Shown: one piece after another, positions 33,328 through 44,119 of the stretch
Layout: each line of letters starts with the position of its first letter
Numbering within the stretch: the first letter of the stretch is position 1
Source of the DNA: Sulfuricurvum sp.
GTDB lineage: Bacteria; Campylobacterota; Campylobacteria; Campylobacterales; Sulfurimonadaceae
DNA: 64,000 bases
NCBI GenBank assembly: GCA_030692765.1
Contig: JAUYUB010000006.1
Location: 1-64,000, forward strand
Direction: 5' to 3'
The notes under the pieces: model-generated
What the model was told of the DNA's origin: nothing
Databases searched by the model: none
The model's input: the letters and a program-made list of their open reading frames with translations, nothing else
Position numbers and translations under genes: made by a program

Positions 33328-33414
<87 letters not shown>

Positions 33415-33455
33415 TCTAGACTTACAACTTCTACCCTATAAACATAAAACTTAAC

Positions 33456-33542
<87 letters not shown>

Positions 33543-33797
33543 CCCTCCCTACTCTCATTAATTAATCATACCAACATCAGAACAAGCACTCATCAACTCA
33601 CGACTACCAAAATGATCCATATGCAATTGTTAAGCTGATTGTAGGATGTCTCATACACTGTTTTTACTGCTCAAAAAACTTGTAAAATTGATAGACCAGC
33701 GGTTAGAAAGCTATAATAAAAGATGATAATTTAACCTCTATTTTCCATTATATCAATTTCCGTTGTTACAAAATAATGAAAGCATAGTGTTTCCATT
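33543..33797. other. Non-coding stretch between tRNA cluster and Pho-type promoter
   Basis: No open frame of note, no strong hairpin and no RNA family recognised. The stretch is AT-rich and marks the boundary between the tRNA cluster and the phosphate island. A TATAAT-like hexamer (TATAAT at 33713-33718, in GCTATAATAAAAG) is present without a -35. Confidence 0.4.
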
Positions 33798-33842
33798 TTG
33801 TAGTCAAACTGTAATATACATGTAATATTCATTAACTATGAT
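33798..33842 (+). promoter_or_regulatory. Putative Pho box array and promoter for the first TonB-dependent receptor
   Basis: Heptamers TTGTAGT (33798), CTGTAAT (33809), ATGTAAT (33820) and a weak ATTAACT (33831) recur every 11 bp with 4-bp AT-rich spacers. The 18-bp CTGTAAT-N4-ATGTAAT unit ends exactly 10 bp before TATGAT (33837-33842), a good -10. This is the PhoB-activated promoter layout, where the Pho box replaces the -35 element. The binding protein itself is inferred. Confidence 0.7.
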
Positions 33843-33892
33843 TCACCAGCAAAGTGCCTGAAGCATTAGCGAAATATAATCAAGGGTTAAAA

Positions 33893-39031: not shown

Positions 39032-39051
39032 TCGACTTGATTTGGTACATA

Positions 39052-39085
39052 CTGTAATGGTTAGGTAATTTCAAATCGTTACTAT
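39052..39085 (+). promoter_or_regulatory. Putative Pho box and promoter for the phoX-like gene
   Basis: CTGTAAT (39052-39058) and AGGTAAT (39063-39069) lie 11 bp apart. The 18-bp unit ends 10 bp before TACTAT (39080-39085), a -10-like hexamer. It is the same layout as upstream of the first receptor and of the propeller-phosphoesterase gene. Confidence 0.65.
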
Positions 39086-39118: not shown

Positions 39119-41257
39119 ATGCTTAAAAAAGAGCTTGATCTCGGATACGATGAGTGCAACACCTCAAGCAACGAAAGTTTTGAAAACGTATTGGCTGATC
39201 GTCTCAGCCGGCGAGATGTAATGAAAATTGGAGCCTGTTTCATTGGGGCTTCACTTTTCGGTTCCTTTGGGGCGCAACTCAATGCCGATGATTCATCTAC
39301 CTCCACTTCAGTTCCTGCTGCAGCGGTATTACTAGGTTTTAATGCCGTACCAAAAAGTCTTGCGGATACGGTAAGTGTTCCAGCAGGATATACTTCTAAA
39401 GTGATTTTTGCTACCGGTGATCCAATCAAGATGGGAGTAAGTACCTATAAAAATAATGGTACTGATAGTCGAGATTTTGAGAATCGTAGTGGTGATTATC
39501 ATGACGGTATGATCTATTTTGGTCTCAAAAATGATAACAGCGGATACGATGCGACCAACTCAAAAAATGGCCTTTTATGTATGAATCATGAATACATCAA
39601 CCAAAATTATATCCACACCACAGCAGAAGTTGCAGCTATCGATAAGACAGCACGTGTTACAGCGCAAGTTGACAAAGAGATCGCATTGCATGGTGTTACA
39701 ATCGTTAAGGTAACGGATAGCGGCTCAGGATTTGGTATTGACAAATCATCAAGCTACAATCGACGTATTACTGGTGATACCCCAATAGCTCTCAATGGCC
39801 CTGCACGTGGAAACGTGCTACTACAAACATCCTATTCAACCAACGGGACCATGACACGCGGTACACTTAACAACTGTGCCGTGGGTTCAACACCATGGGG
39901 AACGTTCCTTACATGTGAAGAGAACTGGTCGGGCTATTTTAAAGGTGATACTCGAACCGGAAAAGAAGCAATTGCGATGAGCCGCTACGGTATCAAAAGC
40001 ACCAGCCACTTTGGATGGGAAAGTGTATATCCACAATTTAGCGCAAGTATTACCGGTGCTGATGCAACCGCTGATTACCGTAATGTTGCTAATACACAAG
40101 GATATGTCGTTGAAATCGATCCATTCAGTCCAACATCTACTTCGATTAAACGCACTGCAATGGGACGTTTTGCGCACGAAACAGCCTCTTTGGGTAAATT
40201 AACGGTTGGGAAACCAGTGGTATTTTATATGGGCGATGATGCTAAAGGTGAATACATCTATAAATTTGTATCGAATCAGAACTGGGATGCAGCAGATGCA
40301 AACGGTGGGTTGAGCGCAGGGAATAAATATCTCGATGCAGGGACACTATACGCCGCAAAATTTAATGCTGATGGTACAGGGCAATGGCTAAAACTTGCTA
40401 TTACTGAACCCGCAATCTCAACATATACTACTTATCCATTTGTTGATGCGGCTGATGTAGCGGTTCATACTCGTATTGCTGCCGATGTAGTCGGTGCGAC
40501 TAAAATGGACCGTCCAGAATGGTGTGACGTTCACCCAACAACCGGTGAAGTATACATGACGCTTACTAATAACTCTGACCGTGGCAAAAGTGGTAAATAT
40601 GGACCTGACGCAGCTAATCCACGTTATTATACAGATACCTGCGAAACAACGGCAACAAACAAAGGAAATGTCAACGGACACATCATCCGCTGGAAAGAGA
40701 CAGGGGAGGAAGGAACGGCTACAACCTTTATGTGGGATATCTATCTCTTCGGTGCACAATCAGATGCCAATGGTACCAATATTAATATCTCAGGTCTAAC
40801 CGATGATAATGATTTCTCTTGTCCTGATGGATTATGCTTTAGCGAAGTGACCAAAGGGTTGATGTGGATTCAAACGGATGATGGAGCCTATACTGATGTA
40901 ACGAACTGTATGATGCTCGCAGCTGTTCCTGGAAATGTTGGAGATGGAGCTGGCTATAGTGTAGCCAATACGGCAGTTCCGACTAATGGAAATGCGGATC
41001 AGACCATTGCAACTTTTGTCGGTAAAGATGCTACGGCTTCAACGCTTAAACGCTTCCTTGTTGGACCAAAAAATTGTGAGCTTACTGGAATAGCAGAAAC
41101 ACCGGATGGTAAAACTATCTTCGTAAATATTCAACATCCAGGAGAAGAGGGGACTGCTTCAACTTTAACCAGTAACTGGCCTGATGGTGGAACATCACGT
41201 CCACGTTCTGCTACTGTGGTTATCACTAAAAATGACGGCGGGATCGTAGGCTATTAA
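39119..41257 (+). CDS. phoX: PhoX-family phosphatase (DUF839), Tat-exported
   Basis: A 712-residue PhoX-type alkaline phosphatase. The N terminus carries a long n-region and a Tat motif (LSRRDVMKIGACFIGASLFGSFG, about residues 35-55 as a region). The PhoX pattern of NHEYIN-like CMNHEYIN, GRFAHETA, TCEENWSGYF and the ending FVNIQHPGEEG is present. PhoX needs calcium and iron and hydrolyses phosphomonoesters; Tat export fits a pre-loaded metal cofactor. A Pho-box-like promoter lies directly upstream. Confidence 0.88.
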   Translation: MLKKELDLGYDECNTSSNESFENVLADRLSRRDVMKIGACFIGASLFGSFGAQLNADDSSTSTSVPAAAVLLGFNAVPKSLADTVSVPAGYTSKVIFATGDPIKMGVSTYKNNGTDSRDFENRSGDYHDGMIYFGLKNDNSGYDATNSKNGLLCMNHEYINQNYIHTTAEVAAIDKTARVTAQVDKEIALHGVTIVKVTDSGSGFGIDKSSSYNRRITGDTPIALNGPARGNVLLQTSYSTNGTMTRGTLNNCAVGSTPWGTFLTCEENWSGYFKGDTRTGKEAIAMSRYGIKSTSHFGWESVYPQFSASITGADATADYRNVANTQGYVVEIDPFSPTSTSIKRTAMGRFAHETASLGKLTVGKPVVFYMGDDAKGEYIYKFVSNQNWDAADANGGLSAGNKYLDAGTLYAAKFNADGTGQWLKLAITEPAISTYTTYPFVDAADVAVHTRIAADVVGATKMDRPEWCDVHPTTGEVYMTLTNNSDRGKSGKYGPDAANPRYYTDTCETTATNKGNVNGHIIRWKETGEEGTATTFMWDIYLFGAQSDANGTNINISGLTDDNDFSCPDGLCFSEVTKGLMWIQTDDGAYTDVTNCMMLAAVPGNVGDGAGYSVANTAVPTNGNADQTIATFVGKDATASTLKRFLVGPKNCELTGIAETPDGKTIFVNIQHPGEEGTASTLTSNWPDGGTSRPRSATVVITKNDGGIVGY

Positions 41258-41344
41258 TAAGCAGCAGACAAAAAGTTAGAGCTTAGTCACTCTTACTTAC
41301 ATTCCTGCTTCCAAATTCAAATCTTCTTTACCGCCTGCCCTAGT

Positions 41345-41400
41345 TTGTAACTGTTTTGTAATATTATCGTATCACTTTGGTAATTATAGTAAGGGATAAT
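41345..41400 (+). promoter_or_regulatory. Putative Pho box array and promoter for the propeller-phosphoesterase gene
   Basis: Four units with the conserved G at 41347, 41358, 41369 and 41380 (TTGTAAC, TTGTAAT, TCGTATC, TGGTAAT) recur every 11 bp. The last ends at 41384, exactly 10 bp before GATAAT (41395-41400), a strong -10. This is the clearest of the three arrays in the island. Confidence 0.75.
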
Positions 41401-41419
41401 ACTGTACAAGGGGTCAATT

Positions 41420-44119
41420 ATGAAAATCTTTTTACTATTATTTATCACTTTTCGTTTATTTGCTTTAGAGTCTTTACCAACAGGTTTCAATATCACGCCC
41501 AAAGCTTCTCAAAGCGCAGATTTTAGAGTTTTTAATCCAGATTTAATACACAGACCAAATTATTTGGCAGGTCAAGCAGTTAGTATTAAACTTTCTCCTG
41601 ATAAAAAAACCTTACTAATCTTAACAAGCGGATTCAACAGAACACATAACAGTGATGGTACTTTAGATATAAATGCATCCAATGAGTATGTATTTATATA
41701 TGATGTATCCAAACAAGTGCCTATAAAAAAACAAGTTATTCAGTTGGCAAATACTTTTTATGGAATTGCATGGGCACCAAAACAAGATGCTTTTTATGTC
41801 TCCGGTGGAGTTGACGATAAGATTTACCATTTTAGCATGCATGGTGGTCAATATCAAAAAACCGCTGAGATAGCTTTGCAACACAAAGTAGGACTAGGTA
41901 TAGATGTAAAACCTATGGCGAGTGAAATTGCGATTAGCTCTGATGGCTCTTTATTGGCAGTATCAAATATGGAAAATGATTCCATTACTTTAATAGATAA
42001 AAGTAAATTTAAAATACTTGACGAAATTGATTTAAGACCCGGTAAAAATAACTCTAGATTGCATGGTGTAGCTGGCGGAGAATTTCCATTTGGAGTTGTA
42101 TTTGCAGATAAAAAAATATATGTAGCAAGCATGCGAGATTATGAGTTAATAGTATTAACCTATAAAGACAATAAATTAAAAATAAATAAACGTATTAAAG
42201 TTGGAAGTCAGCCTACGCGAATTTTATTTGATAAAAAGCATCATGAACTTTATGTTGCAAATAGCAGAAGTGACAGTATCAGTATTATAGATACTAAAAA
42301 CGACACTGTAAAAGGAAGTTTTTTCACAACTGCTCCTACAAATATCTTTAATAAATACCACTTAAAAGGTGGCAATCCAAATGCTATGAGATTAAAAGAT
42401 GATGTATTGTATGTGAGCAACGGAGGTCTAAATGCTATCTCCCTCGTTAATATAATACATCAAAAAGATACGACTACTGGAGAAGTTATTGGGCTTTTGC
42501 CAACTGGATGGTATCCAAATGATTTAGAAATAAAAGATAATTATCTCTATATAGTAAATGGAAAAGGTTTATCAGGCAGTAATATTGGAAATTGCAGAAA
42601 TAATGTATCAACAGATGCTAACGCATCCTTCGAGTGTGCTAGCCATAATCTTCATACTTTAAAGACTAAAAAAGCAGGATTTTTGACTATGAAAATTCCA
42701 GATCGAGAGGAATTAAAAAAGTTAACATTCCAAGTTGCTAAAAACAACAATTTTTTTCAGCAAAATGAAAAAGATGAGATGATGAAATTTTTGCAAAATA
42801 AGATTAAACATGTTGTATATGTTGTAAAAGAAAACAGAACATATGATCAAATTTTAGGTGATTTAGAACATGGAAACGGAGATGCTAATTTAACGCTTTT
42901 TCCTAAAACAATAACACCTAATCATCATAAACTCGCAAAAGAGTTTGTTACTTTAGATAATTTTTTAGACAGCGGGACTGCAAGTAATGATGGCTGGGTT
43001 TGGAGTACATCAGGGCATACAACAGAGTATACTGAAAAAAATATTGCAATTAACTACGCACATCGTGGTCTGAGTTATGATAACGAGGGACAAAACAGAA
43101 ATATTCCTTTAGCTCATGCTGATATTAAAGAGCGACAAACATTTGATTCTAGAGTACCTGATGATGATGATCTTTTACCAGGTACCAGAGATGTGGCATC
43201 TGTAGACGGTGATGATGATGCACCGGCTGAGGGTTATTTGTGGGATAAAGCTTTGAAAGCTGGTCTTGAAGTCAGAAATTATGGGTTCTATTGTGATGAA
43301 GAACGTTATTTTTTAGATAAAAATGACTCCGCATATGTAGTGCCTTCCGAATATCCGTTTGAAAATAAATTAGTGCAATCGTATCCTAATAAAAAAGCTT
43401 TGCTAGGTATTACTGATCCCTATTTTCATGCCTATGATCCTGGATATCCTGATTTTTGGAGATATAAAGAGTTTAAAAGAGAATTTAATGAGTATGTAAA
43501 GAATCAACGTCTTCCAAATTTACTTTTGGTCCGATTACCAAATGATCATTTTGGTTTATTCAAAACAGCTTTAGCAGAGGTAAATACTCCTTTAAAGCAG
43601 ATGGCGGACAATGATTATGCTTTAGGTCTATTAGTTCAGGATATCGCGAACAGCCCTTTTAAAGATTCAACACTTATTTTTGTAATAGAAGATGATGCTC
43701 AAGATGGTGCTGACCATGTAAATTCACATAGAAGTATTTGTTTGGTCGCTGGTCCTTATGTGAAAAAAAATGTTGTTATTTCTAAGCGTTACACTACGGT
43801 AAATGTTTTAAAAACAATAGAAGATATTTTAAATATTGAACCCATGGGACTTAATGATGCGTTGAGTGAAAGTATGAGTGACCTTTTTGATCAAAATGCA
43901 ACAGAATTTGTCTATAAGGCTGTCGTTCCAAATATTCTATACAAAACAGAATTGAAATTGCCAAAAGTTTCAATACCACATAATCTTGATGAAATAAAAG
44001 TTGATCACGATAGTGCGTATTGGGATAGAGCTATGGATGGTCAAAACTTTGAAAGTGAAGATAACCTTGATAGCGTAAAGTTTAACAAAGCTCTTTGGAA
44101 AGGACTAAAGAATGAATAG
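41420..44119 (+). CDS. Beta-propeller/phosphoesterase fusion protein
   Basis: An 899-residue secreted protein. Signal peptide at 1-15. Residues ~50-420 are a YVTN/YncE-like beta-propeller (repeated IDTKNDTVKG and LYVANSRSDSISI-type blades). Residues ~460-800 are a phosphoesterase of the AcpA/PLC family (ENRTYDQILGDL, the DSGTASNDGW region, and DDAQDGADHVNSHRS with metal-ligand Asp and His). It probably hydrolyses phosphoesters in the periplasm or at the outer membrane. Codon wobble is visibly AT-richer than in the neighbouring housekeeping genes. Pho-box promoter upstream. Confidence 0.8.
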   Translation: MKIFLLLFITFRLFALESLPTGFNITPKASQSADFRVFNPDLIHRPNYLAGQAVSIKLSPDKKTLLILTSGFNRTHNSDGTLDINASNEYVFIYDVSKQVPIKKQVIQLANTFYGIAWAPKQDAFYVSGGVDDKIYHFSMHGGQYQKTAEIALQHKVGLGIDVKPMASEIAISSDGSLLAVSNMENDSITLIDKSKFKILDEIDLRPGKNNSRLHGVAGGEFPFGVVFADKKIYVASMRDYELIVLTYKDNKLKINKRIKVGSQPTRILFDKKHHELYVANSRSDSISIIDTKNDTVKGSFFTTAPTNIFNKYHLKGGNPNAMRLKDDVLYVSNGGLNAISLVNIIHQKDTTTGEVIGLLPTGWYPNDLEIKDNYLYIVNGKGLSGSNIGNCRNNVSTDANASFECASHNLHTLKTKKAGFLTMKIPDREELKKLTFQVAKNNNFFQQNEKDEMMKFLQNKIKHVVYVVKENRTYDQILGDLEHGNGDANLTLFPKTITPNHHKLAKEFVTLDNFLDSGTASNDGWVWSTSGHTTEYTEKNIAINYAHRGLSYDNEGQNRNIPLAHADIKERQTFDSRVPDDDDLLPGTRDVASVDGDDDAPAEGYLWDKALKAGLEVRNYGFYCDEERYFLDKNDSAYVVPSEYPFENKLVQSYPNKKALLGITDPYFHAYDPGYPDFWRYKEFKREFNEYVKNQRLPNLLLVRLPNDHFGLFKTALAEVNTPLKQMADNDYALGLLVQDIANSPFKDSTLIFVIEDDAQDGADHVNSHRSICLVAGPYVKKNVVISKRYTTVNVLKTIEDILNIEPMGLNDALSESMSDLFDQNATEFVYKAVVPNILYKTELKLPKVSIPHNLDEIKVDHDSAYWDRAMDGQNFESEDNLDSVKFNKALWKGLKNE

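Follow-up and report, generated by a model that had tools for sequence, protein, structure and literature searches.

A four-unit Pho-type array before a propeller-phosphoesterase gene is a probable PhoB-activated promoter in Sulfuricurvum

Results

Genes of the phosphate island

In the window, that is, the whole stretch of 64,000 nucleotides analysed here, the forward strand carries an open reading frame for a protein of 899 aa at 41420-44119. Pfam assigned a lactonase-type propeller (PF10282; 37.7 bits, cut-off 21.7) and the Phosphoesterase family (PF04185; 33.5 bits, cut-off 23) to this protein. An N-terminal propeller joined to PF04185 is the composition of a YncE/alkaline phosphatase fusion, and the annotated relatives carry the label 'bifunctional YncE family protein/alkaline phosphatase family protein'. 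One of this kind, in a Paraburkholderia plasmid record, has the same architecture, with 36.9% identity over 98% of the query. The genes exbB (PF01618; 44182-44607), exbD (PF02472; 44597-44974) and tonB (PF03544; 44978-45649) follow on the same strand, the first of them 62 bp downstream, and probably belong to the same operon. No terminator-like site was found on the + strand between 41200 and 44300. Because the genes lie at most 62 bp apart and no terminator was found there, an array in front of the first gene probably also drives a TonB energiser that serves the receptors of the island, and the probable operon would comprise the propeller-phosphoesterase gene, exbB, exbD and tonB.

The genes around the array include phoX, phoD and a TonB-dependent receptor, as identified by Pfam. 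The phoX gene occupies 39119-41257. A two-unit box precedes it at 39051-39085 on the + strand (G at 39054 and 39065, TACTAT 15 bp from the last G), and this box is borderline by score alone (p = 0.065). The TonB-dependent receptor is preceded by a sister array on the + strand at 33786-33842, with the units GTTTC, GTAGT, GTAAT and GTAAT (G at 33789, 33800, 33811 and 33822); its last G lies 15 bp before TATGAT. This hexamer lies at 33837-33842. Because the array runs up to it, the listed GTG start of the receptor at 33854 is probably wrong; the likely start is ATG 33893, which follows AAGGGTT and opens a signal-peptide-like sequence. The island therefore appears to have three Pho-type promoters, one for the TonB receptor, phoD and a barrel protein, one for phoX, and one for the propeller-phosphoesterase. 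Just before the phosphate island (33340-33540), a stretch of about 80 bp occurs in two nearly identical copies, which by eye resemble duplicated tRNA-Met genes.

No full-length match to the propeller-phosphoesterase was found in the 40 other genomes of the genus or in 297 other sampled genomes of the order; the other matches in the genus were propeller fragments of about 66 residues. The array consequently has no phylogenetic footprint of its own. Apart from these fragments, matches to the propeller-phosphoesterase and to the TonB receptor came from just one of the 41 genus genomes, that of the host. A relative with 70% identity occurs in a Sulfurimonas MAG, and neither before it nor before its upstream TonB-receptor gene was an array evident by inspection and matrix scan. 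Inspection of the DNA directly upstream of the Anaeromyxobacter and alphaproteobacterial relatives gave no clear array.

Structure of the array

From 41344, the sequence reads TTTGTAACTGT TTTGTAATATT ATCGTATCACT TTGGTAATTAT AGTAAGG GATAAT, and positions 41340-41422 are ctaGTTTGTAACTGTTTTGTAATATTATCGTATCACTTTGGTAATTATAGTAAGGGATAATACTGTACAAGGGGTCAATTATG. A reading made from the sequence only had described four heptamers with a conserved G at 41347, 41358, 41369 and 41380, the last of them ending 10 bp before GATAAT. These G's are present in GTA cores with spacings of 11, 11 and 11 bp, and the last heptamer, TGGTAAT at 41378-41384, does end 10 bp short of GATAAT at 41395-41400. The distance from the G of unit 4 to this hexamer is 15 bp.

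All four units lie on the + strand, and each was scored with a pstS/phoU matrix and an olsF matrix, which are described below. Unit 1 (TTTGTAACTGT, 41344-41354) scored 6.4 and 5.4, respectively. Unit 2 (TTTGTAATATT, 41355-41365) is the strongest, with 9.6 and 8.2. Unit 3 (ATCGTATCACT, 41366-41376) is degenerate, with 1.9 and -0.1; its core is GTAT instead of GTAA and thus lacks the A that is almost always present as the fourth base. Unit 4 (TTGGTAATTAT, 41377-41387), the promoter-proximal one, scored 5.8 and 7.0. Thus at least two direct-repeat units of 11 bp, with seven conserved and four variable bases, are present, as in the E. coli PHO box of phoA, phoB and pstS (PMC4415409), and one of the units is degenerate.

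The GATAAT hexamer lacks the usual first T. Among distances of 10-21 bp, the best -10 score falls at 15 bp. No consensus-like sigma-70 -35 element paired with GATAAT was found on the + strand, and the box stands in the place of the -35 at the fixed distance from the -10. In E. coli, phoA and phoB show the same distance of 15 bp between the G of the last unit and the -10, which is TATAGT at phoA and CATAAT at phoB. If transcription starts at 41407, the predicted leader has only about 13 nt and is shorter than that of olsF or phoX. AAGGGG at 41408-41413 is a probable ribosome-binding site by inspection.

Pho boxes of pstS, phoU, olsF and phoX in the genus

The gap between pstS and phoU in 30 genomes of the genus contained two divergent two-unit boxes of the form TTGTAAYC N5 GTTAYC. 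The phoU loci covered 30 of the 41 genomes with phoU and the olsF loci 30 of the 39 with olsF, and the counts given here are not independent because all genomes belong to one genus. An end of the phoU box at a later GTA with TATTAT was dropped, as the genus alignment gave two conserved units ending in TACAAT.

The host olsF (ornithine lipid synthase) matched NCBIfam NF052615 with an E value of 2.6e-224, and orthologues were found in 39/41 genomes of the genus. Exactly four strict units were present in 30/30 olsF loci. A search of 68 genus loci, 561,900 bases with both strands counted, gave 30 strict four-unit chains; all of them belonged to olsF, and all had a hexamer at 15 bp. At one olsF locus (L101) the array was found once a mis-set start was left aside, and its four-unit promoter is intact. 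The olsF gene of this locus, in one genome of the genus, contains an internal TGA. The array in the window is like the olsF promoter in having four 11-bp units and a -10 hexamer 15 bp from the last G. It differs in that the weak unit of olsF is the fourth (GAAA) and that of the array is the third, and in that the olsF leader is longer.

Two strict units were found in 7/7 phoX loci, which are the eight matches minus a fragment (L132). One phoX locus (L131) has no hexamer at 15 bp, and its score does not beat shuffles. At L133 (genome C23:76989-79106) there is another copy of phoX, with 69% identity to that of the window; its box has two units, and TACTAT follows at 15 bp. Because the pstS and phoU rows had first been picked partly by their -10, their counts were redone without using the -10 for the choice of array. 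TANNNT occurred 15 bp from the last unit G in 30/30 olsF, 6/7 phoX, 29/30 phoU and 24/30 pstS loci. Five pstS loci have the hexamer at 16 bp, and the host's own pstS row is of that kind. The fixed 15 bp fits the remark in PMC10294691 that the spacing between the PhoB site and the core promoter is likely important.

Signal of the array against background

The exact pattern of four GTA at 11-bp spacing occurs in one place in the 2,148,185-base genome, namely the array at 41347. The number expected from base composition is about 0.4 per genome by a hand estimate. With one mismatch allowed, 16 places were found genome-wide against 25 for the reversed control pattern, and longer patterns with the -10 showed no excess over reversed controls genome-wide (17 vs 21; 55 vs 96). 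Genome-wide consensus counting was therefore dropped as regulon evidence, and bare-pattern counts were used for finding candidates only. The bare GTA pattern is weak evidence for the array.

The first matrix described single units and was built from 56 two-unit pstS/phoU sites that came from 29 further genomes of the genus. Both rows of the host's own genome (L032) and one mis-picked pstS row (L036) were omitted, and one locus (L056) had no pstS row. On both strands of the 64 kb, this matrix ranked the array first at two, three and four units, with scores of 16.0, 17.9 and 23.7. These scores were reached by 14.5%, 1.5% and 0% of 200 dinucleotide shuffles, respectively, so a pair of units alone would be non-significant, and the four-unit score stood against a shuffle maximum of 16.1 (0/200). 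The units thus match the lineage's own Pho box. At four units, second place in the window went to the sister array of the TonB receptor, which belongs to the same island. The second matrix was built from the olsF arrays of 29 other genomes (116 units, 78 distinct), again with the host's own genome omitted. It ranked the array first at four units, with 20.5 against a null maximum of 14.9 (0/200 simulated sequences); at three units the TonB-receptor array came first and the array at 41344 second. These results show that weights learned elsewhere place the four-unit array well beyond chance.

Other candidate sites were also observed. A three-unit GTA array at L013 (genome C17:6881-6923), whose last G is 15 bp from TATAAT, stands before a gspG-like type II secretion cluster, suggesting phosphate-controlled secretion; this array fell short of the threshold for two-unit scores. 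At L023 (genome C12:63770), Pho-type boxes lie at about 1510-1571 and 2359-2416. The genes behind them, labelled by inspection, are a small phosphatase-like gene and an adjoining second TonB-system-like gene. By inspection, the one-mismatch matches at C12:172059 and C12:176052 have as their surroundings a tRNA and the start region of a cell-wall gene.

Discussion

The sequence-only reading placed a Pho-type array before the propeller-phosphoesterase gene. This is borne out by the first rank under both matrices, the fitting Pfam domains and the right position. We believe, with a probability of roughly 85%, that the array is a PhoB-activated promoter of the Pho regulon. As judged from its layout, it resembles a known switch, and relatives have the same layout before other phosphate genes. 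A literature search found no description of a Pho box for this lineage, and most subscription journals were outside its coverage. The PhosR box of Campylobacter jejuni probably consists of GTTTC-type repeats. The host is comparable to that species, in which the PhoB-like two-component system PhosS/PhosR controls pst and phoX (PMC3197622).

We infer binding, occupancy, cooperativity, start site, operon, secretion and induction of the array by phosphate starvation as follows. At low phosphate, phosphorylated PhoB would bind the 11-bp units head-to-tail on one face of the DNA. Two dimers would probably fill the array cooperatively, because three of the units are fair to good and only unit 3 is poor. 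The proximal unit, in the place of the -35, would then bring sigma-70 RNA polymerase to GATAAT, and transcription would start near 41407. The transcript would encode the predicted secreted propeller-phosphoesterase and the ExbB-ExbD-TonB energiser.

Four copies had been taken to imply two PhoB-dimer sites and hence strong cooperative control. The first part stands as the natural reading of four half-sites. PhoB occupies direct repeats of 11 nt in a head-to-tail manner (PMC4415409), and together with the conserved four-unit layout of olsF this gives room for two dimers. The word 'strong' does not follow, because each unit of the array scores lower than either unit (11.0 and 12.2) of the pstS-facing box of the host, and the four units together (23.7) come to nearly the same total as these two (23.2), although the first matrix favours pstS in this comparison since it was trained on pstS/phoU relatives. 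An array of more but weaker units would point to a switch with higher cooperativity that possibly acts later, and not to one of greater strength.

It is possible, though we consider it doubtful, that the array is a PhoB promoter in which just units 1-2 and 4, or just the proximal pair, count. Unit 3 would then be a chance GTA in AT-rich DNA, and a single dimer might act. The low scores of unit 3 under both matrices point in this direction, as does the failure of its GTATC core under the strict unit definition, by which only units 1-2 of the array chain together; phoX and phoU, moreover, have two units in the genus. Nevertheless, the register is held through unit 3. E. coli pstS also has more than two units in a run, with a weak middle one (TTACA), and the degenerate fourth unit of olsF is retained in the genus.

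Is PhoB the regulator? The host encodes both PhoB and PhoR, in a phoU-phoB-phoR cluster divergent from the adjoining pstS. Its gene names were taken from the translations, with PhoU identified by Pfam and PhoB by NCBIfam. The best NCBIfam match of the host PhoB is TIGR02154 (PhoB), with 201.5 bits, below the equivalog cut-off of 296.2. It shares 86/224 aligned residues with E. coli PhoB. The residues R201, T194, V197 and R219, which make base contacts in the PhoB-DNA structure (PMC3973317), are all conserved in the host protein. In contrast, N196, A198 and N200 of the host replace D, H and R of E. coli. The core of the box is TGTAA(T/C) in the host and TGTCA in E. coli, and the three substitutions could go with this change of core. 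The acidic patch of E. coli PhoB (E177 and E191), which faces sigma (PMC3973317), is also missing in the host, and for this reason the contact between PhoB and RNA polymerase may differ.

Another response regulator of the OmpR/PhoB family, which would also use direct repeats of about 11 bp and respond to a signal other than phosphate, is an unlikely occupant of the array. Such a reading draws on the tandem-repeat mode that the family has in common (PMC3973317) and on the sub-equivalog match of the host PhoB. It is opposed by the unit weights, as those learned from pstS/phoU and those learned from olsF both single out the array, and by the context of phoX, phoD and phosphoesterase genes, with phoB adjoining phoU. 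That the GTA spacing arose by chance in AT-rich intergenic DNA with no regulator is very improbable. In its favour, the bare pattern is no more frequent than the reversed controls. Against it, no null sequence reached the array in 200 for either of the two separately trained matrices, the TonB-receptor array of the same island ranks directly behind it, and the -10 lies at exactly the conserved distance.

A PhoB-activated promoter would tie the phosphatase and TonB gene set to the phosphate-starvation regulator of the host. The lineage also gains a usable Pho-box definition, TTGTAAYC N5 GTTAYC, with 15 bp between the last G and the -10 in most cases. The promoters of pstS, phoU and phoX have two units; olsF has four, as do the presumably acquired promoters of the TonB receptor and the propeller-phosphoesterase. 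The distance to the -10 is 15 bp in most of them. We tentatively propose, as an idea that may well be wrong, that the number of PhoB units is a selected setting of each promoter, that four weaker units give a steeper and later response, and that acquired genes are wired by a host array. The later and steeper switch is proposed because PMC6194859 links PhoB affinity to timing in E. coli. Since each promoter keeps its own unit number throughout the genus, the relation between half-site count and timing becomes testable. If the proposal is true, horizontally gained genes would be wired in through acquisition of the host's own array, and membrane-lipid replacement and the acquired scavenging island would be switched on only in deep starvation.
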